Shown here: positions 5,606-23,668 of the stretch, in pieces
Layout: each line of letters starts with the position of its first letter
Numbering within the stretch: the first letter of the stretch is position 1
Source of the DNA: a virus
IMG/VR virus record: IMGVR_UViG_3300042889_000421
Location: 1 to 54,154 of that record
Length of the DNA stretch: 54,154 bases
Strand: one strand, 5' to 3'
Translations under genes and position numbers: made by a program
The notes under the pieces: generated by a model
Told to the model about the DNA's origin: nothing
Database searches by the model: none
What the model saw: only the letters and a program-made list of their open reading frames with translations

Positions 5606-5613
5606 GATAAATA
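5606..5613 (+). promoter_or_regulatory. T4-like late promoter
   Basis: GATAAATA, seven of eight bases of the T4 late -10 element TATAAATA, lies 27 bases before the first ATG of the eight-gene block. There is no -35 box, as expected for gp55/gp33-dependent late promoters. An AAGGA ribosome site follows. Confidence 0.6.
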
Positions 5614-5640: not shown

Positions 5641-7674
5641 ATGAAATCATTCAAACAATTTTTACTAGATTCTCTAAATGACAAACAAAAAGAAAAGTTA
5701 GGTATATATTGGGATAATACCCCTAGAACAGCTGCCAAAGAATTATCTAAGCATGTCCTTCCTAATGATGGTGGGGGTAGTATTAATGTACCTCTTTCTG
5801 TAGATACTAAAGAAGATGTTAAACATCATTTAGAAAAGCATGGATTTGAACTTTCTAATTATTCGGAAGGTAAAGCAAAAGACAAACATGGAAGAGAAGT
5901 TTCTATTGGTTCTGTTTTAAAGTCCCCCAAAACTGCAGCACCAGATACCTTAGTTAAGGGTTTTGAGAATGATGACAGAAGTTCAAATATAACAAAAGAT
6001 ACACATCATATTTTATTCTCTAATATACCCGTACATATTGGGGAAGTTTCAACCAACAAAAAATGGAACTCTTGTGCTGGTTTAACACCCGCAGGAAGAT
6101 TCACTCCATTCGGTGGCGGTGCTGCTGCTAAACAAATTCCTGATGCAATTAAAGCTGGTTCTCATGTTGCATATCTAATGCCAAAAGACAAGCATGATGC
6201 TAATGATGCTGCTGCTAGAATTCTGCTACATCCCTATCATTCATATGGTAAAAATGGTGCTATTGAACATTCTGTTCTGATGCCAGAAAGAAAAGTATAT
6301 TCTGCTTCTGGTGGTAAGAATTCAGACTTTCATAATTCTCTAGAGAAGTTTGCACGAGAAAAATATCCAATGCAAGAAGGTAAGATATACAAAAAAGATC
6401 CTTCTGTTTATGATGATGATGGTCAAAGAATTAGATTCAATACCTCTCCAAATTCTGTAAAGAAAATCTTAACAGGTGGATGGAAAGAGGGTATGACACA
6501 TCTATCAAAAGAGGCGGCAATGCAAGCAGTTCAATTACCAGCTGCAAGTATAACTGCTGTATTAAATCATCCTAGAACACAAGAAAATTGGGAAGGGGTT
6601 GAAGAAGGTCATCAAGCAATTGCTAGTCATCAAAAATTAACAGATGCACATGTGGACAAACTGTTAGAATTAGGTAGAGGCACACATCTTGCAGGTAATA
6701 AAAAATTAACCAAAACTCAAGTTGGGAAAATTGCTAATTATAGACCTGAAAGATTTACGGGAGAATCTGATTCTGAAAAAGAAGTTTCTGATATGGCAAA
6801 TGATGCACAAGACAGAGAAACAATCAAAACACATGTGACATTAATTAGAACTCATGCTGATAAGATTAAACCAGAACACGTTAAAACGATGATTAGTCAT
6901 CCTGCTATAACTGCTTCTAATTTGGAAACGGTAGCTAGAAATACCAGTAACCCAGAAGTGCAAAAAGCAATCTTAGAGCACCCAAAAACTGATTCTGGTG
7001 CTCTTTGGAATATTGCTAGAGCTACTAAAAATCCAGAATTTCATAAAGCAATTTTGAATCATCCTAAAGTAGATGCTGATGCTATCGGAGAAGTTGCTAG
7101 AAATTCTACTGATCCTGAGAACCAAAAGGAAATTTTAACTAAAAAGGATGAAGATGGGCGGATTCGTTCAGCAGACAGGAGTGCTCTTAGGGCTATTGCT
7201 GAAAACACTACTGATTCTGAGATGCATAAAGCAGTTTTGAAACATCCTAATGCAGATGACTCTACACTTAGAGCTGTTGCTGAACATACTACTGATCCTG
7301 AGATTCATAAAGCAATTTTAAATCACCATCTTGATGTGGGTTCTAATGTTCTTCATACAATTGCAACACATAGTACTGATCCAGAAATCCATAAAGCTAT
7401 CGTGAAACTACCACAAACAATGAATTCTACTCTTGATACTGTTGCTAGATATTCCAATGATCCTGAAGTTCATAAAGCAATTGTGAATCACCCCATCGTA
7501 AGTAGTGCCGTTCTTGATACTGTTGCAAATCGTTCTAAAAATCCAGAAGTTCATAAAGCAATTATGAACCACCCTAAAGTTTCAGCAGATGTTCTTCATA
7601 CAATTTATAAAAGCACTGATAACCCAGAAATAGATAAGGCAGTACATGACCACCCCAAATGGAAATCATTATGA
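5641..7674 (+). CDS. Candidate internal head protein with 27-residue repeats
   Basis: A 677-residue protein. Its start, MKSFKQFLLDSLN, resembles the capsid-targeting leader of T4 internal proteins (MKTYQEFIAE type), though here the cleavage-like site is LLD rather than L-x-E. Residues about 125-270 form a domain with W-N-S-C-A (Cys about 145) and LLHPYHSYGK, shared with the protein at 11459. From about residue 415 to the end there are roughly nine helical repeats of about 27 residues around NPEVHKAIxNHPKVxxxxL, resembling leucine-rich-variant repeats. It is first in a late, tightly overlapping operon. I infer a virion-packaged protein, possibly delivered to the host; no catalytic function is shown. 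Confidence 0.8.
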   Translation: MKSFKQFLLDSLNDKQKEKLGIYWDNTPRTAAKELSKHVLPNDGGGSINVPLSVDTKEDVKHHLEKHGFELSNYSEGKAKDKHGREVSIGSVLKSPKTAAPDTLVKGFENDDRSSNITKDTHHILFSNIPVHIGEVSTNKKWNSCAGLTPAGRFTPFGGGAAAKQIPDAIKAGSHVAYLMPKDKHDANDAAARILLHPYHSYGKNGAIEHSVLMPERKVYSASGGKNSDFHNSLEKFAREKYPMQEGKIYKKDPSVYDDDGQRIRFNTSPNSVKKILTGGWKEGMTHLSKEAAMQAVQLPAASITAVLNHPRTQENWEGVEEGHQAIASHQKLTDAHVDKLLELGRGTHLAGNKKLTKTQVGKIANYRPERFTGESDSEKEVSDMANDAQDRETIKTHVTLIRTHADKIKPEHVKTMISHPAITASNLETVARNTSNPEVQKAILEHPKTDSGALWNIARATKNPEFHKAILNHPKVDADAIGEVARNSTDPENQKEILTKKDEDGRIRSADRSALRAIAENTTDSEMHKAVLKHPNADDSTLRAVAEHTTDPEIHKAILNHHLDVGSNVLHTIATHSTDPEIHKAIVKLPQTMNSTLDTVARYSNDPEVHKAIVNHPIVSSAVLDTVANRSKNPEVHKAIMNHPKVSADVLHTIYKSTDNPEIDKAVHDHPKWKSL

Positions 7675-8387
7675 AAACATTCAAAGAATTTAACGCATTA
7701 ACAGAAGAGATATTAATAGAACAAATTTTATCTATTGATGAAGACCTATTAACAGAAGCAGTTGGTAATATCATTGATGCTAAAGACCATCATCTGTATC
7801 AAAAAAGAAGTGTTGAGGACTTAGGGTTACGTTCACCAGATGAAGTACAAAATGCTTTAGCAGGTGATGCTACTTCTGTAAAGATTATGAACAAAGGACA
7901 TATTCCCAAAAGTGGTGATTTGGTTGGAGCAAGATTGAATATTAATGTATTAAATAATACTGGTATACCAGTTTTAACTATGCATAAAGCAACTAATAAA
8001 TCTAACTACAAACGTGGTCAAGGATTCTATAAAGGCGAAGCACAATCCTATCAACAAGTTGCTACTCTTAAAGATGCACAATTTAATGTACATCAAGCAG
8101 GAAGAGAAGCTATTGCATCTGGAAAGATGAACAAGCATCCAATGGCATCAGTTGATGGAAATTTTGTACCAACCGATAAACCAAATTTTGATGGTGTTGA
8201 AGTTAGATTTAATCCTAAAGCACATCATCTATTTGTTGATGCTAATAATAATGCTATTAAATCAGCAGAAGATGTAACTTTATATGGACATCGTGCATAT
8301 TTAAGAGGTAAGATAGAATATCACACACCAGAAACGGCTCCAAAGAAAGTTGGGGGTGCTCCTTCTCAAACTAAATTTTTAGGTTAA
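7671..8387 (+). CDS. Candidate internal head protein
   Basis: A 238-residue protein. I chose ATG 7671 because it overlaps the previous stop as ATGA and starts the MKTFKEF leader shared by its neighbours; an ATG four codons earlier is the alternative. L-x-E sites (ALTEE, LLTEA) follow within 30 residues and would suit a prohead protease. The middle contains GREAIASGKMNKHPMASVDG and a conserved-looking VRFNPKAHHLFVDA segment. I recognise no enzyme family. The leader and position suggest a packaged protein. Confidence 0.75.
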   Translation: MKTFKEFNALTEEILIEQILSIDEDLLTEAVGNIIDAKDHHLYQKRSVEDLGLRSPDEVQNALAGDATSVKIMNKGHIPKSGDLVGARLNINVLNNTGIPVLTMHKATNKSNYKRGQGFYKGEAQSYQQVATLKDAQFNVHQAGREAIASGKMNKHPMASVDGNFVPTDKPNFDGVEVRFNPKAHHLFVDANNNAIKSAEDVTLYGHRAYLRGKIEYHTPETAPKKVGGAPSQTKFLG

Positions 8388-8388
8388 C

Positions 8389-8676
8389 ATGAAATCATTT
8401 AAAGAACTATTAGAAGAGATTGGTACCGGAAAGTATATGCATTGTAACATATCATTACTAACTAATAAAACTTGGCATAAAAATCAAGATAGTGGACATG
8501 AGTGGTCAACAGAAACTCCACAAACTAGTAAATATGGCTCTACAACATATCAAGTAACTGGTGGTAAATTAGGTCAACGTATTTTTAAAACTATTGATAA
8601 TGCAAAGAAAGCAATTGAATTTGATCATGAAGTTCAATTTGGTAAATTTGCTAATCTAAAACCAAGTAAAGATTGA
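8389..8676 (+). CDS. Small candidate internal head protein
   Basis: A 95-residue basic protein beginning MKSFKELLEEIGTG, with LEE as a possible cleavage site by the prohead protease. The remainder has a cysteine and many H, K and T residues, and no recognised domain. The size and charge resemble T4 internal proteins, which are small basic proteins packed with the DNA. It starts one base after the previous stop and is followed after one base by the next gene. Confidence 0.7.
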   Translation: MKSFKELLEEIGTGKYMHCNISLLTNKTWHKNQDSGHEWSTETPQTSKYGSTTYQVTGGKLGQRIFKTIDNAKKAIEFDHEVQFGKFANLKPSKD

Positions 8677-8677
8677 T

Positions 8678-10786
8678 ATGAAATCATTTAAAGAATATAT
8701 TGCTCTAGAAGAAGCAAAGATAGATGATTATAAAGCACAAGAATCTTCTATATCTACTGAACATGATCCTGACGCAACTATTAAAGAACCTTCTGATATA
8801 GTAGATCATTTTCATGCCCATAATCCCACTGGTGACATTAATCACACTAAATGGGTAGTTGGACAGTATAAGAAAGGTTTAATCAAACAGGAAGATGCTC
8901 CTGCCATGAAAGATCTTCTAACAAACTTCAACAAGTTTAAGGATAAACTCCTAAAGAAGAAGATTGAGCAATATAAGACTCACGCAGAACTTCAACATGC
9001 TATTGCACCACATATAGGAACCTCTACTTCCGAGAAACAATCTGCACAGATTGAAAAGGATATGGATGAAGGTACCACACTTGTGCATTCAACACCTAAT
9101 ATGACATTAAGACATATTCATACTAAAGAAGGATCTATTGCTGCTTCTAAATATCCTGATGGTAAAAGACCATCTTGGTGTACTGCAAGAGAAGATTCAC
9201 AGAATATGTTTGACCATTATAATAGTAGAACTGGTGGAAAATTCTTTGTAGCACATTTGCCTAATGAGAAACCACCATTTCATAAAATTGGTATTGCAGT
9301 TGGTGCAAATGAATTTCAAGATGCAGACAACACAAAATTAGAAGATCGTAGATTAAAGACTTTAGTAGATAGAAATCCAGAAATGAAAGAAATACCAGAA
9401 CTTCAAGGTGCTTCTATTCATACTACTAAACCGGAAAATGTTGAGAAACATATTCATGATTTGATGGACAATGATCCAGAAGATACCAGAGATGAAATAT
9501 TTAACAATTCAGAAAAATATACAAAGCACTTAAAACTATTTCATCTTAAAAAAGTACACGACACAATTAATCAATATGATGATGAAATGGAAAAGGCAGA
9601 AGATGAAGATGATTCTGTTAAGAATTCTAAGTTCAAAAGTGTATTAAAAGAACTAGCTCGTGGTACTGGTAATCCAGAAACATTAGAACATCTCTCCAAG
9701 CATCCTGATGATGGTGTAAAAGCTGCAGTTGCTAGAAACTATTCAACACCAAAGATTGTTAGAAAGCAATTCCTAGATCATCCTAATCCAATTGTTAGGG
9801 GTTCAGTAGAACTTAGAGATTTTCCTGAAAGAATAAGAGCAGAAACAGTTGCTAAAGAAACTAATCCTAGTGTAATAGCTAAACATGTTACTGGTGATGA
9901 TTCTCTTGATGTTCAGAAAGCAGCATTAGCAAATACTAATACTGGTTCAGATGCTCTTGGTAATATTGGAGCAATTTCTCATCATCCAGAAATCCACAAA
10001 GCAATTTTAGAACACCCAAAAACTGATGCTCCTGCATTAGAACTTTTGGTTAGAAATAATGTAGCTTTACATAATCATGCAAAGGAAATTTTAAATCACC
10101 CCAAAGCATCTTCAGATACTTTATCATATCTTGGTAGGAATGTGATGAATAAAGACATTATGCATGATATTATTAAACACCCCAATACTGATGCAGAAAC
10201 CTTATCATCAATGTCTAGAAATACCGGACAGCCAGATATTCATCAAGCAATTCTTAAACACCCTAAAGTTGATAGAAGAGCAATTGATCAAATTGCAGAG
10301 TCTACACATGATGAAGGTGTGATTAAATCTATTGTAAAACATCCTGAAACGCAAGGAAATGCTTTGCACCAAATTTCTATGAAAAAGGATGATCCAGAGA
10401 TTCAAAAAGCAATTATAAAACACCCAAATGTGGATAAGTATGCTCTTGGTTCTATTGCTAGAAGAAGAGCCGATATAGAAGTTCAAAAGGCAGTAATTGA
10501 ACACCCAAAATCAACTCTTGGTGTTATCAATGATATTGTTGATAAGAATCCTTCACATGATATTCTGCACCATATACTAAATAATCATCATGGTAGATTG
10601 ACACATGCTACTTTGAATGGTATAAAACGTGGATTGGGAAGTAAAGTCCCAGAGATATATGATAATTCTCATGCTACCCAAGAACATATAGATGCTGTTA
10701 GAAATGAAGGAAAACCTGTAGTCACACCAAAGAAAGCACCAGCAAAAAAACTAGATTTATATTCAGACGATTGGTTCAAAGAATGA
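8678..10786 (+). CDS. Candidate internal head protein with Trp-Cys motif and helical repeats
   Basis: A 702-residue protein. It starts MKSFKEYIALEEA, giving an L-E-E/A site that fits T4 prohead-protease specificity. Residues about 130-220 include PSWCTARED (Cys about 168) and an F-DHYN-x-RTGGKFFVAHLP segment, a pattern seen in uncharacterised phage proteins. A charged helical stretch follows, then from about residue 325 to 650 come 27-residue repeats like those of the protein at 5641, more diverged at the N-terminal end. The C-terminus is basic (KKAPAKK). Binding of host macromolecules through the repeat solenoid is inference. Confidence 0.8.
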   Translation: MKSFKEYIALEEAKIDDYKAQESSISTEHDPDATIKEPSDIVDHFHAHNPTGDINHTKWVVGQYKKGLIKQEDAPAMKDLLTNFNKFKDKLLKKKIEQYKTHAELQHAIAPHIGTSTSEKQSAQIEKDMDEGTTLVHSTPNMTLRHIHTKEGSIAASKYPDGKRPSWCTAREDSQNMFDHYNSRTGGKFFVAHLPNEKPPFHKIGIAVGANEFQDADNTKLEDRRLKTLVDRNPEMKEIPELQGASIHTTKPENVEKHIHDLMDNDPEDTRDEIFNNSEKYTKHLKLFHLKKVHDTINQYDDEMEKAEDEDDSVKNSKFKSVLKELARGTGNPETLEHLSKHPDDGVKAAVARNYSTPKIVRKQFLDHPNPIVRGSVELRDFPERIRAETVAKETNPSVIAKHVTGDDSLDVQKAALANTNTGSDALGNIGAISHHPEIHKAILEHPKTDAPALELLVRNNVALHNHAKEILNHPKASSDTLSYLGRNVMNKDIMHDIIKHPNTDAETLSSMSRNTGQPDIHQAILKHPKVDRRAIDQIAESTHDEGVIKSIVKHPETQGNALHQISMKKDDPEIQKAIIKHPNVDKYALGSIARRRADIEVQKAVIEHPKSTLGVINDIVDKNPSHDILHHILNNHHGRLTHATLNGIKRGLGSKVPEIYDNSHATQEHIDAVRNEGKPVVTPKKAPAKKLDLYSDDWFKE

Positions 10787-11331
10787 AAACTTTTAAAGAA
10801 TTCATATCTGAGAGTAGTAAACAACTTATTCATAGAATAGACAACACTCAGATAGATAATTTCAACCATAAACTGAATACATATCACCATACTGCTGATT
10901 GGACTGAATCTGGACAAGCACACCCTAAAGATATTCCAGAAGAAGGCTTTGTTAAGTCTAGGGGTTTATTTGGTGGAGATCTCCATGCTATTGCACCATA
11001 TACTACACCGAGAGGTACTAGATTCATACAACATTATGATGATAAGGGTAAGTCAAATATTATGTTTCATGATAAAGATAAACATCTTATAATTGCTCAC
11101 CAACCCATACTATCATCTTTTCCAAAGAGTAGATTCAAATATCTTGAAAACTCTGGAGAACATTTCAGTATTAATCCAGGTATACCTATACAGCAAATTG
11201 TTATTAAGAATCCTATCAATTTCATGAAACGGCAAGGACATAAGGTAATCTTTGTTCCTAATCTAGATCATGCTAAGAAAAAATTAGAACAATCTGGAAT
11301 AAACCACAATGTAGAAGGAGAGTTTGAATGA
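10783..11331 (+). CDS. Candidate internal head protein
   Basis: A 182-residue protein starting MKTFKEFISESS, the closest match in the cluster to the T4 leader MKTYQEFIAE, with I-S-E as the cleavage-like site. ATG 10783 is preferred over an ATG four codons earlier because it overlaps the previous stop as ATGA and starts the leader. The body contains SRGLFGGDLHAIAPYTTPRG and FMKRQGHKVIFVPNLDHAKK. No family is recognised. It overlaps the next small gene. Confidence 0.75.
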   Translation: MKTFKEFISESSKQLIHRIDNTQIDNFNHKLNTYHHTADWTESGQAHPKDIPEEGFVKSRGLFGGDLHAIAPYTTPRGTRFIQHYDDKGKSNIMFHDKDKHLIIAHQPILSSFPKSRFKYLENSGEHFSINPGIPIQQIVIKNPINFMKRQGHKVIFVPNLDHAKKKLEQSGINHNVEGEFE

Positions 11332-11459
11332 AAACTTTTAAAGATATCACAATGGGGTTGAATGTTCGTTCAGATAAAAATGCTGGATCTAGAACAATTA
11401 AAGCTGAAGTAGTACCAGAAAAACATATTACAACAATAGACACCAAATGGGAAGGGTAA
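11328..11459 (+). CDS. 43-residue protein with the shared leader
   Basis: A short frame begins at ATG 11328, overlapping the previous stop (ATGA), and ends at TAA 11457-11459, which overlaps the next ATG (TAATG). The product starts MKTFKDITMG and is basic in the middle. The two exact overlaps and the shared leader make it a real gene despite its length. It may be a small packaged peptide like the shortest T4 internal proteins, or a truncated paralogue. Confidence 0.65.
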   Translation: MKTFKDITMGLNVRSDKNAGSRTIKAEVVPEKHITTIDTKWEG

Positions 11460-13210
11460 TGATATCATTTAAACAATTTATAAACGAACACTTATCTTCA
11501 TCTGAGCAAGAAGTTGTAGATGAAATGAAATTAGATTCATCTGCAGGTAAAGAGAACTTCAAAGGAATTATCCCAGAAGGACATTCACACACAGAAATTC
11601 CTATTAGAAACCCATTAGATTTAAAAATCAATGAACATTTAAAGGCTAATCCTGTTACAGATAGAGCAGGTAATCATCTTGGTTATTACAAGAGAGATGA
11701 AGAAGATCATAAAACAGTAGTTCACCCTGATGGAAGAAAGGTTAAGTTATCGGGAGTATTAAAAAGCAATCCTGTATTAGCTAAAGAATTTGCAGAAGTT
11801 GGTTCAAGAGCATCCGCTGAACGTACTAATACTAGATGGACTGCTCCTGCTATTGATACAACTCAAAAAAAGATTTACATATCTAATCACCCTCATGCAT
11901 GTTTTGGTAAATCTCAAGGAAAGCCTTGGAGAAGTTGTGCGGATTGGGGTTCTGGATATGCAGCAAATCATCTTGAATCTGATGTTGAACAAGGTGGTGG
12001 TGCAGCATTCTTAACTCATAAAGATGAACCAACACCAGATAATCCCAGAATGGCATTAGGAAGAGTTGCTATACACCCTTATCATGCTATAGATGAAGCG
12101 GGAAAAATCATTAGAGATGAAAATGGAGGTTCTGCACATACAATTTTAAGAGCATCTTCTAAAAGATATGGTGAAGATGATGCACATGAGAGTTTTCATA
12201 AGAATGTTGCCCAACATCTAGAAGAAAAACACCCAATGATATACTCAAGGTATAAACTTAATTCGCAGGTTTATCAAGGTGATGATGAGGATAACAAGAT
12301 TATTGAAAGACCTCTATCAGAAGAAGAAAAGAAACCTCATATTGAAAATCTTGACTTTGGTGTTAAGATGGGTTATTCATCTCCTGATGATGTTGTTCAT
12401 GCTATTAAACATAATTATTTAACTCAATCACATATTGATACTATAACAAAAACAAAAACTCAGAGTCCATCCCATCTTGAACTAGCAATAGCACATAAGA
12501 ATGGAAAGGTTAAATTATCAAATGATAATATTAATAATATTACAAAACATGGTAATGCTTTAGCATCAGATGAATTATCATTAGCACATAAGACAAAAAG
12601 ACTTCCCGATGAAGCACTTAATAATATTGCTAAGAATCCAACTGCGATTGCTGCACATGAACATTTAACTCAGGCATTTTTGGATAATAAACATCTTCCC
12701 GATTCTGCTATTAATGCTATTGCCAGTAATCCAAAATCACATTGGGCTCATTATAATCTAGCATCTGCTCATGCAAATGGTACTAAAATACCGGATGAAG
12801 CGATTCATTCAATAGTTCAAAACCCAATATCTGCTAATGCTCGTAAAGAATTAATTTCTGGTCATTTGCATGGTAAAAGTATTCCTGATGAAGCTATTGA
12901 TTATATGGCTAAAAATGGGTTTGAGGCAGAACATCATGGTATAGTCCAAGCACATTTAGCTGGTAAGAAAGTATCCGATGAAGCTATTGATCATATAGTA
13001 AAAAGTCCTTTCTCAACAATAGCTCATTCATTGTTAGCTGGTGCTCATGCTGATGGCAGAATAAAATTATCAGATGACCATTTAAATACTATAACAAGTA
13101 ACGACCATTCAAGAGCTGCCCACGATAAGTTAGAATTAGCACACAAAGTTGGTAAAACTCTTCCTGATCAGGCTGTATTCAATCTTAATAAGCGTGGATA
13201 TATGCTGTGA
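11459..13210 (+). CDS. Candidate internal head protein with 31-residue repeats
   Basis: A 583-residue protein starting MISFKQFINEH, with I-N-E as a cleavage-like site. I chose ATG 11459 because it forms TAATG with the previous stop and starts the leader. Residues about 145-280 match the Trp/Cys domain of the 5641 protein: PWRSCADW (Cys about 160), a GGGAAFLTHKD segment, VAIHPYHAID and EEKHPM. From about residue 365 to the end lie helical repeats of 30-31 residues around IPDEAIxxIxxNP...H..L..AHxxGK, like tetratricopeptide or Sel1-type hairpins and unlike the 27-residue repeats of the other two large proteins. Confidence 0.8.
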   Translation: MISFKQFINEHLSSSEQEVVDEMKLDSSAGKENFKGIIPEGHSHTEIPIRNPLDLKINEHLKANPVTDRAGNHLGYYKRDEEDHKTVVHPDGRKVKLSGVLKSNPVLAKEFAEVGSRASAERTNTRWTAPAIDTTQKKIYISNHPHACFGKSQGKPWRSCADWGSGYAANHLESDVEQGGGAAFLTHKDEPTPDNPRMALGRVAIHPYHAIDEAGKIIRDENGGSAHTILRASSKRYGEDDAHESFHKNVAQHLEEKHPMIYSRYKLNSQVYQGDDEDNKIIERPLSEEEKKPHIENLDFGVKMGYSSPDDVVHAIKHNYLTQSHIDTITKTKTQSPSHLELAIAHKNGKVKLSNDNINNITKHGNALASDELSLAHKTKRLPDEALNNIAKNPTAIAAHEHLTQAFLDNKHLPDSAINAIASNPKSHWAHYNLASAHANGTKIPDEAIHSIVQNPISANARKELISGHLHGKSIPDEAIDYMAKNGFEAEHHGIVQAHLAGKKVSDEAIDHIVKSPFSTIAHSLLAGAHADGRIKLSDDHLNTITSNDHSRAAHDKLELAHKVGKTLPDQAVFNLNKRGYML

Positions 13211-13605
13211 AGACTTTCAAACAATATTTAAATGAGAATATCATTGTTGGACAACATAAGTTCATTGTAGATCCTGGGTATGATAATCATGAGGCATCTT
13301 TACATCTGTTTAATGTTAATAAAGTAGAGAAATCATTCTCACAGGATAAAGATAAGTATATTGGAAAAGGTGGTACTGGTGCTGGTATAATTAAAGATAG
13401 GTATCCAAGAGTACAAGACTTTATAAAACAAAATAAAGTTATACATTCTTCTTCTGTTGGTGTTGATGATGAAGGGAAGTTAACTTTTAATAATGGTAGA
13501 CATAGATATTCAGCATTTAGAGATATGGGTGTTAAACATATACCAATGTCTTTACATTCTGATGAAGATAGAACAAATGCAAAAAAGTTTGGTTATATTA
13601 ATTGA
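13207..13605 (+). CDS. Candidate internal head protein, ParB/Srx-like hint
   Basis: A 132-residue protein read from GTG 13207, which overlaps the previous stop (GTGA). The N-terminus MKTFKQYLNEN carries the shared leader with an L-N-E site. The C-terminal part, with LTFNNGRHRYSAFRDMGVKH at about residues 91-110, looks like the G-R-H-R segment of ParB/sulfiredoxin-type nuclease or nucleotide-binding folds. That resemblance is short and tentative. It is the last gene of the operon; a new promoter overlaps its stop codon. Confidence 0.7.
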   Translation: MKTFKQYLNENIIVGQHKFIVDPGYDNHEASLHLFNVNKVEKSFSQDKDKYIGKGGTGAGIIKDRYPRVQDFIKQNKVIHSSSVGVDDEGKLTFNNGRHRYSAFRDMGVKHIPMSLHSDEDRTNAKKFGYIN

Positions 13606-13629
13606 CATTCTCACTTGATGGTTTATAAT
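13602..13629 (+). promoter_or_regulatory. Sigma70-type promoter flanked by an inverted repeat
   Basis: TTGACA (13602-13607) and TATAAT (13624-13629) with a 16-bp spacer. The -10 box sits in the loop of an inverted repeat, ACTTGATG (13613-13620) and CATCAAGT (13634-13641), followed by TTTTT. The repeat could be an operator, or a weak terminator for the upstream operon overlapping the promoter. Confidence 0.8.
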
Positions 13630-13635
13630 GAATCA

Positions 13636-13785
13636 TCAAGTTTTTCTACAACTAAAGGAGTCGCTTATAAGATAAACTGAAGTACCATTCCGTTATAAAA
13701 CTTCAATAAGGCAATGAGTCACCGAAGAATAGGAAAACAATATTAGGATTCTTCTGATATTGTAACTAAAGAATAGGAGAAATAC
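13636..13785 (+). other. Long structured 5' leader of the wall-hydrolase gene
   Basis: About 150 bases lie between the predicted transcript start and the hydrolase ATG, with no reading frame of note. Several stems are possible: TGAAGT with ACTTCA near 13678-13705, GAAGAAT with ATTCTTC near 13724-13757, and ACAATAT with ATATTGT near 13737-13763. The last two overlap and would be mutually exclusive, as in a switching leader. Regulation of lysis timing is inference. Confidence 0.4.
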
Positions 13786-14241
13786 ATGCGATCAATTACA
13801 ATGATCTTATGTCTGTGCTTTATGTCTGCATCTGTTGATGCTCAGACTTTATCACATAAAAAGAATATTATTTCAAAATCAAAGACTGTTATCATTAATG
13901 GTCATATTTCAAAAAGGGATATATTATGCGCTGCTGAGACTTTGTACTCAGAAGCAAGAGGTGAATCATTGACTGGACAACTTGCAGTGGGCGCAACAAT
14001 TGTCAATCGGTCTAAATTATTAAATAAAACCGCATGTAAAGTAGTAAAGCAACAATATACACAAAAACGTATACCTGTTGATGATAAAAAAGAGTTCCAC
14101 AAACTAGCAACAAATATTCTATATGGGAATGTTAAAAACCCAATAGGAAAATTAGATTCTTTTGATTCCTTTAAACATAAACGTCACCCAAGACATAGTG
14201 TTCATATAGGAAATCACTGGTTTTATAAATCTATGTCTTAA
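13786..14241 (+). CDS. SleB-type cell wall hydrolase, secreted endolysin candidate
   Basis: A 151-residue protein. Residues 1-20 form a signal peptide (hydrophobic ILCLCFMSASVDAQ after a short basic start). The rest matches the Hydrolase_2/SleB family: AAETLYSEARGE with the conserved glutamates at about residues 47-56, GQLAVGATIVNRSK, and a C-terminal HWFY segment. These enzymes cleave peptidoglycan and are used as endolysins by several T4-like aquatic phages. The signal peptide suggests export through the host Sec system rather than a holin-only route. It has its own host-type promoter, a long leader and a strong terminator, so it forms a separate unit. Confidence 0.85.
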   Translation: MRSITMILCLCFMSASVDAQTLSHKKNIISKSKTVIINGHISKRDILCAAETLYSEARGESLTGQLAVGATIVNRSKLLNKTACKVVKQQYTQKRIPVDDKKEFHKLATNILYGNVKNPIGKLDSFDSFKHKRHPRHSVHIGNHWFYKSMS

Positions 14242-15138: not shown

Positions 15139-15708
15139 ATGTCTGCAGCCATGTTTTCTCAAATCAATAAATCATTTAAAGGTAATAAAGAGCAACAAGC
15201 ATTTTACCTCTTGATGGATAATATAGACAACGAATCTATTAGAAGCGTTATTGAATGGATTATAGATGCAAATTTTTCTGAAGAGAAACCAGAAATATTA
15301 AACTTAATGATTTGTTCAGGAGGAGGATCTTTATCTGCTGGATTTGCTCTTATAGATGTTATGAGGGGTTCTGGTATTCCTGTAAGAACTATTGGTATTG
15401 GAGAGATTGCTTCTGCTGGTTTAATGATCTTTATGGCAGGTATGAAAGGTGAGCGAGTATTAACACCCAACACTAGTATATTAAGTCATCAATACTCATG
15501 GGGTAGTTCTGGAAAACACCACGAGTTAATTAGTACAACAAAAGCATTTGATCTTACCAGTGATATGTTATTGAGACATTATAAGAAATTCTCTTCATTA
15601 TCAGAAGATAAAATTAAGAAGATACTACTTCCTGCTCATGATGTCTGGTTGAGTTCTGACGAGGCATTGAAATATGGATTGTGTGATATGATCAAAGACC
15701 TTTCATAA
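15139..15708 (+). CDS. clpP: ClpP-like serine protease
   Basis: A 189-residue ClpP/crotonase-fold protease. The triad is visible: Ser about 92 in EIASAG, His about 117 in LSHQYSWG, and Asp about 168 in HDVWLSSDEALKYGLCD. The oxyanion-type segment CSGGGSLSAG is at about residues 56-65. ClpP-like genes occur in T4-like aquatic phages; roles in prohead processing or in altering host proteolysis have been suggested, and neither can be decided here. A plausible late promoter and an AAGGA ribosome site precede it. A host-type promoter follows three bases after its stop. Confidence 0.9.
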   Translation: MSAAMFSQINKSFKGNKEQQAFYLLMDNIDNESIRSVIEWIIDANFSEEKPEILNLMICSGGGSLSAGFALIDVMRGSGIPVRTIGIGEIASAGLMIFMAGMKGERVLTPNTSILSHQYSWGSSGKHHELISTTKAFDLTSDMLLRHYKKFSSLSEDKIKKILLPAHDVWLSSDEALKYGLCDMIKDLS

Positions 15709-23660: not shown

Positions 23661-23668
23661 TATAAATA
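23661..23668 (+). promoter_or_regulatory. T4-like late promoter for the rightward tail block
   Basis: TATAAATA, a perfect T4 late -10 element, 30 bases before the gp48 ATG, with no -35 box. It is part of a near-palindrome, so the reverse strand also contains TATAAATA at 23655-23662, too close to the gp4 start to be useful. Confidence 0.8.

Follow-up and report, generated by a model that had tools for sequence, protein, structure and literature searches.

The eight-gene operon and its products

The window analyzed here corresponds to a single IMG/VR record (IMGVR_UViG_3300042889_000421; 54,154 bases), which has no completeness estimate; in it, eight consecutive plus-strand genes (5641–13605) all encode a protein that starts M[K/I][S/T]FK (Table 1). 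An initial annotation of this DNA had read these genes as a late operon whose products carry leaders like the capsid-targeting sequence (CTS) of the T4 internal proteins (IPs). The eight starts that it listed were all recovered where it placed them, with the start of P0002 taken at 7671 (the open reading frame (ORF) list begins 12 nt upstream), and the start pattern M[KIRL][STR]F[KRS] was found in none of the 52 window genes of 60 aa or longer outside the operon and in 1 of 386 genes of phages Melnitz and HTVC008M.

Neighboring genes of the operon either overlap by no more than 4 nt or leave gaps of 1 nt. Because of this tight spacing, the GATAAATA octamer upstream and the terminator hairpin downstream, the eight genes would, by these signs, form one transcription unit. 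The distance of GATAAATA at 5606 from the first start codon is similar to that of the octamer TATAAATA at 23661, 33867 and 51694, which lies ahead of three tail-region genes at distances of 38, 31 and 26 nt. Of the earlier description as a "late operon", the second word is thus borne out by spacing, promoter-like octamer and terminator, and the first reflects a single promoter-like octamer. Likewise, the claim of a set much larger than that of T4, spanning 0.5 to 77 kDa, holds for the number of proteins (eight versus three small T4 IPs) and is corrected for their masses, which run from 4.8 to 79.0 kDa.

Table 1 Features of the operon region, with window positions
Feature	Position	Strand	Description
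Late-promoter-like octamer, T4-type	5606..5613	+	GATAAATA; 35 nt ahead of first start codon
P0001, 677 aa	5641..7674	+	Leader MKSFKQFLLD (D10); LRV-type helical repeats C-terminal (Pfam LRV_2, E=1.5e-12)
P0002, 238 aa	7671..8387	+	Start MKTFKEFNAL; leader MKTFKEF, then several (L/I)xE sites; Phage_L5_gp82 domain (PF25735, E=7.4e-11)
P0003, 95 aa	8389..8676	+	Leader MKSFKELLEE
P0004, 702 aa	8678..10786	+	Leader MKSFKEYIALEE; C-terminal alpha-solenoid; residues 33–230 homologous to PA5oct EST35_0205
P0005, 182 aa	10783..11331	+	Leader MKTFKEFISE, exact T4 spacing (I8-S-E10); homologue in 595-kb uncultured phage
P0006, 43 aa	11328..11459	+	Start MKTFKDITMG; leader-like MKTFKDI, no cleavage site; weakest member
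P0007, 583 aa	11459..13210	+	Leader MISFKQFINE, exact T4 spacing; N-terminal region related to P0001; C-terminal part repetitive
P0008, 132 aa	13207..13605	+	GTG start; leader MKTFKQYLNE, exact T4 spacing; weak ParB-like/PFIN similarity; leader-bearing L053 homologue
Intrinsic terminator-like hairpin	13613..13641	+	13 pairs then TTTT; 8 nt past last stop codon

Behind the common start, P0001, P0004 and P0007 are interrelated (P0001 has its N-terminal region in common with P0007 and its repeats in common with P0004), and the remaining five cargoes gave no matches among themselves. LRV_2 matches and a solenoid model for P0004 identify P0001 and P0004 as helical-repeat proteins, and P0007 looks repetitive like these two. 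The predicted structure of P0004 is reliable over the helical repeats only (residues ~320–605); a Foldseek search with it returned low TM-scores, and the model supports only the designation "alpha-solenoid". Profile searches gave no family match for P0003, no match of P0001–P0008 to an ADP-ribosyltransferase (ART) family and, beyond the leader, none of the operon products to T4 IPs; the only family match of P0005 was DUF6886 (E=0.016). A guess that P0005 is an ADP-ribosyltransferase was dropped, the single-sequence model, made with no alignment, being useless (pLDDT 34.5). At the downstream end, a perfect sigma-70-type promoter (TTGACA-16-TATAAT, 13602–13629) overlaps the terminator hairpin and points toward a gene for a cell-wall hydrolase (13786–14241, Hydrolase_2).

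The leader keeps the T4 register

In T4 (AF158101), the leader of IpI reads MKTFKEFTSTTTPVSTITEA and those of IpII and IpIII both read MKTYQEFIAEA; the first seven residues of IpI, MKTFKEF, recur identically in P0002 and P0005. The first 10 residues of IPIII are enough for packaging, and T4 mutants assign residues 4 and 7 to targeting and residues 8 and 10 to processing, D10 giving a targeted but uncleaved protein (PMC9026906). Across the operon, every product has F at residue 4; residue 7 is aromatic (F/Y) in six, the exceptions having L (P0003) or I (P0006). An (L/I)-x-E site with its E at residues 8–12 was found in 6/8 operon products compared to 4/52 other window genes (Fisher p=1e-4); the initial annotation had noted such a site within about the first 15 residues of most products, and these six carry it with E at residue 9–12. 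The exact T4 register, I/L8-x-E10, is present in P0003, P0005, P0007 and P0008, in which residues 8–10 are LEE, ISE, INE and LNE, respectively. At F4, K5, F7 and E10 both synonymous codons are used, so that conservation lies in the protein rather than in the DNA. The likeness to T4 on which the initial annotation had relied is accordingly upheld at the level of individual positions: the register is that of T4, and the operon conserves the targeting (4, 7) as well as the processing (8, 10) residues.

The same leader precedes unrelated cargo in environmental phages

Briefly, viral contigs were searched with a DNA pattern for MK[ST]FKxF.xE, with the same codons in permuted order as a control. At least 120 viral-contig stretches matched (a lower bound, with many contigs short) compared to 7 for the permuted control. 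The 80 loci that were read contain 81 ORFs headed by the leader, almost always at the longest possible start or close to it. The contigs are environmental and mostly T4-like: a T4 core gene, recognized by homology to Melnitz or HTVC008M, is present in 50 of these loci, many of which are just a few kb long. Among 32 further leaders not selected at residues 8–12, residue 8 was I/L/V in 27 and residue 10 was E in 20, against an E background of about 9% at other positions. Once the leader was removed, 121 proteins fell into 62 cargo clusters, and the leader is best described as a tag on unrelated cargo. Recognizable cargo comprises ADP-ribosyltransferases (Alt-like profile), NMNAT/cytidylyltransferase, HD hydrolase, acetyltransferase and methyltransferase, and small leader-bearing proteins are encoded beside gp20–gp23 in several contigs. 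Among the loci of this analysis, the operon is the largest cluster of leader genes.

A leader-tagged HD-domain protein (L081:1223–1783; HD_4, E=4e-16) resembles (p)ppGpp hydrolases and is possibly a packaged alarmone-degrading enzyme. A 54.5-kb contig with gp21 (L097:4731–10707) carries three genes with the leader (starts MLSFKSFLLEA, MKSFRNFITEN and MISFKQFITEA), of which two are neighbors.

Relatives of the operon's own cargo also bear the leader. Homologues of P0002 in contigs L011 (67%), L012 and G001 (202 kb, with gp21) keep MKSFK.F, the stretch from leader to domain varying in length (L011, G001), and several (L/I)xE sites lie between leader and domain in both P0002 and its L011 homologue. 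In G001, the P0002 homologue adjoins two tandem leader-tagged ADP-ribosyltransferases (163028–164819, L023:3028–4819) that fit an Alt-like RNA polymerase ADP-ribosyltransferase profile (E=1.9e-17 and 9.6e-16); TATAAATA lies ahead of the first, and the second has the leader MKTFKKFVDD, with D10 as in P0001. The P0004 homologue in L011 begins MLRFKHFLMIEAKIDD, for which the P0004 counterpart is MKSFKEYIALEEAKIDD, and residues 33–230 of P0004 match EST35_0205 of phage PA5oct (E=2e-14 in a small search, 1e-4 in the full collection), a protein annotated as detected in virions by electrospray ionization tandem mass spectrometry (ESI-MS/MS). The P0008 homologue in L053 adjoins two more leader genes, and the P0005 homologue in the uncultured phage begins MLNFKGW. 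In L012 (9983–11362), the P0002-type domain continues into ~200 further residues on its C-terminal side; this fused extension has the kinase-like motifs DIVGLEHDNI and AIDHGGSF and no further Pfam match.

Leader-bearing proteins in published virion proteomes

Mass-spectrometry virion lists of cyanophages S-SCSM1 and S-CREM2 (PMC9602691, PMC10665884) were compared with a register taken from the T4 mutational data, which requires an aromatic residue at positions 4 and 7, one of I/L/V/M/F at position 8 and E at position 10. Genes in this register were represented in virions at 5/6 compared to 92/504 for all others (Fisher p=0.0012), a count in which F at residue 8 was allowed and residue 5 freed after the N-termini had been seen, and which becomes 4/5 without ORF136; an earlier, narrower pattern had fixed residue 5 and so missed the S-SCSM1 NMNAT. 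Shifted by one residue, the register matches no virion protein of the two phages. The detected proteins are an NMNAT of S-SCSM1 (MKSFLQFLKE), three S-CREM2 enzymes, namely a SAM hydrolase (MKDFDSFLEE), an APH/ChoK-like kinase (MKRFDAFLTE) and a cytidylyltransferase (MKNFSSFLTE), and ORF136 (MQTFSMFFSE). In a third cyanophage, S-CRM01, a kinase begins MISFDQFLSE, and a putative protein kinase has been reported in S-CRM01 virions. Separately, S-CREM2 ORF12 (L164:7704–10313), a virion protein with a Cas9-like annotation, gave no Pfam match at E 0.001; ~17 residues inside its annotated start it reads LRFASFMAEA, which resembles the leader.

Affiliation of the contig

The gp6-like baseplate protein of the window is closest to those of Methylophilales phage Melnitz (38%) and Pelagibacter phages Mosig and HTVC008M, and homologues of gp32, gp4, gp53, gp5, gp25, gp6, gp8 and a gp59-like helicase loader were seen. 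On this gene content, the window is taken as a fragment of a T4-like myovirus without the head genes; genes for a gp21-type prohead protease and core are present in the relatives G001 and Melnitz. A megablast of the operon region against phage records returned no relative, nor did viral-contig scans with P0001, P0005, P0007 and the gp32 homologue, P0002 alone giving matches. Elsewhere in the window lie a ClpP-type protease gene (15139–15708, E=3e-27) and a gene for a protein whose N-terminal part is built from short KEYREANKDN-like repeats (1989–2699).

Interpretation of the operon

CTS-tagged internal proteins are an established kind, known from T4, and the operon very probably encodes cargo of this kind, which would enter the prohead, be trimmed there by gp21 in most cases and pass into the host at infection. 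The eight proteins would be made together late in infection from the late-type promoter; the leader, mainly through its aromatic residues 4 and 7, would bind them to the prohead scaffolding core; a gp21-type prohead protease would cut after (I/L)-x-E in most of them, freeing cargo around which DNA is then packed; and at infection this cargo would enter the host along with the DNA and act at once. These steps differ in strength. Packaging of the eight-protein set in this phage, as the initial annotation had proposed, is a well-supported prediction that draws on the leader register, the modularity of leader and cargo and the virion proteomics of relatives. Cleavage of the leader would follow by analogy with T4, and injection with an early effector role is suggested by T4 and by the kinds of cargo. 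The cargo would probably serve host takeover or counter-defence, since T4 IPs are reported to inhibit restriction enzymes (all three acting on host type IV enzymes; PMC12373910) and the recognizable cargo of relatives is largely enzymatic. For the large repeat proteins, binding of host targets is our guess.

Several observations weigh against packaging and processing of the set. In P0002 and P0004 the site lies two residues later (E12), P0006 has no (L/I)-x-E site at all, and residues 8–10 of P0001 are LLD, with D10 in place of E10. Because D10 permits targeting and blocks cleavage in T4, P0001 is predicted to be packaged yet uncleaved, and P0006 may be an expelled peptide or no true member. 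The genes gp20–gp23 and the large terminase were not found on this 54,154-base fragment, which is thus without gp21, gp22 and gp23. Counts of TATAAATA across the whole window were not above chance, and for that reason the position of the octamer, not its frequency, was used as evidence for a promoter. S-SCSM1 ORF30 (MKTFKQFMSE), the homologue of a common leader protein, fits the register and was undetected in virions; the label "virion protein" on ORF30 belongs to a neighbor overlapping it by one base, and ORF30 was counted against the rule. Finally, the authors of the cyanophage proteomes left open whether the virion enzymes are contaminants, which CsCl-purified virions can carry. The common T4-type packaging leader argues that these enzymes are cargo.

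The best-surviving alternative, which we still regard as unlikely, accepts packaging by the leader but assigns the proteins to head assembly (core scaffolding, head size or DNA condensation), with the large solenoids as core or intracapsid structural parts rather than injected effectors. Solenoid repeats often act as scaffolds, and P0001 and P0004 carry them; the same leader also occurs on the small proteins beside gp20–gp23 noted above, and T4 IPIII mutants accumulate polyheads (PMC9026906). Against this, the operon lies away from head genes, its cargo varies between phages, unlike core proteins, the recognizable cargo of relatives is largely enzymatic (ADP-ribosyltransferase, NMNAT, SAM hydrolase, kinase), and each of the three T4 IPs reportedly inhibits restriction enzymes of the host (PMC12373910). 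That the leader instead directs proteins to the tail or another assembly site outside the head is very improbable: whole-virion proteomics cannot separate head from tail and the window is rich in tail genes, but in T4 a leader with this sequence directs proteins to the core of the prohead, and the conserved (I/L)xE fits the prohead protease, which is active inside the head. Equally hard to credit is a common start that reflects translation initiation or common descent of the eight genes with no targeting signal, for although the post-start codons are A/T-rich and P0001, P0004 and P0007 are interrelated, F4, K5, F7 and E10 are kept as amino acids through both synonymous codons, the permuted codons matched 7 stretches against at least 120, residues 8 and 10 fit the requirements of a protease and not of a ribosome, and the other five cargoes are mutually unrelated.

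Beyond injected CTS cargo in this one phage, we put forward, more tentatively and as something that could easily prove too broad, that the CTS is a general shipping tag by which natural T4-like phages preload dozens of unrelated enzymes and inhibitors. Cargo would then be gathered in dedicated late operons and sorted by residue 10 (E10 cut free, D10 left uncut, as in P0001 and one G001 ADP-ribosyltransferase), and the three large repeat proteins would form a new class of injected, target-binding effectors. That T4-like phages can package a variety of proteins by means of the CTS had already been suggested by reviewers of T4 work (PMC9026906). As far as the open literature shows, three things are new here: an operon of eight such genes with large solenoid products, the wide range of cargo clusters, and the connection of the leader with cyanophage virion enzymes; no earlier report of such tags in cyanophages was found in that literature, which omits most subscription journals.

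The non-DNA content that marine and environmental phages inject is largely unknown, and the leader offers a sequence rule that helps to tell virion-borne enzymes from other accessory genes. It accounts for several cyanophage virion enzymes for which contamination could not be excluded by their authors, and the eight operon products are candidate effectors open to testing, among them large repeat proteins that do not resemble the T4 internal proteins. If the CTS is indeed a general shipping tag, sequence alone could list the proteins injected by environmental T4-like phages.

Comparison with known systems

The packaging signal of P1 DarB and the propeptides of SPN3US are likewise N-terminal and sit on head-loaded proteins for delivery, but they differ in sequence, and the SPN3US cleavage motif is AxE with mostly long propeptides. 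Closer in part are two mass-spectrometry-detected virion proteins of the jumbo Pseudomonas phage PA5oct, EST35_0205 (MKLFEVF) and EST35_0202 (MKSFRDYY), whose leaders match partially, with no obvious cleavage site. The virion enzymes of S-SCSM1, S-CREM2 and S-CRM01 have the same T4-register leader, whereas their cargo belongs to other families and their genes are scattered rather than collected in one eight-gene operon. T4 Alt, a packaged RNA polymerase ADP-ribosyltransferase with a 7-residue propeptide according to published work, provides a gp21-processed enzyme of host takeover; the operon has no recognizable ADP-ribosyltransferase, whereas two leader-tagged proteins of G001, which has the P0002 family in common with the operon, fit a T4 Alt-like profile. 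The nearest parallel is T4 IpI, IpII and IpIII, which are CTS-tagged, processed by gp21 and injected against restriction, and which have the same leader sequence and register with unrelated cargo behind one leader. Three repeat proteins of 64–79 kDa (P0001, P0004 and P0007) give the operon a size of cargo not seen among the T4 IPs, and whereas T4 encodes three small IPs (about 8–20 kDa) at two separate loci, the operon brings eight leader-bearing proteins together in one apparent transcription unit.

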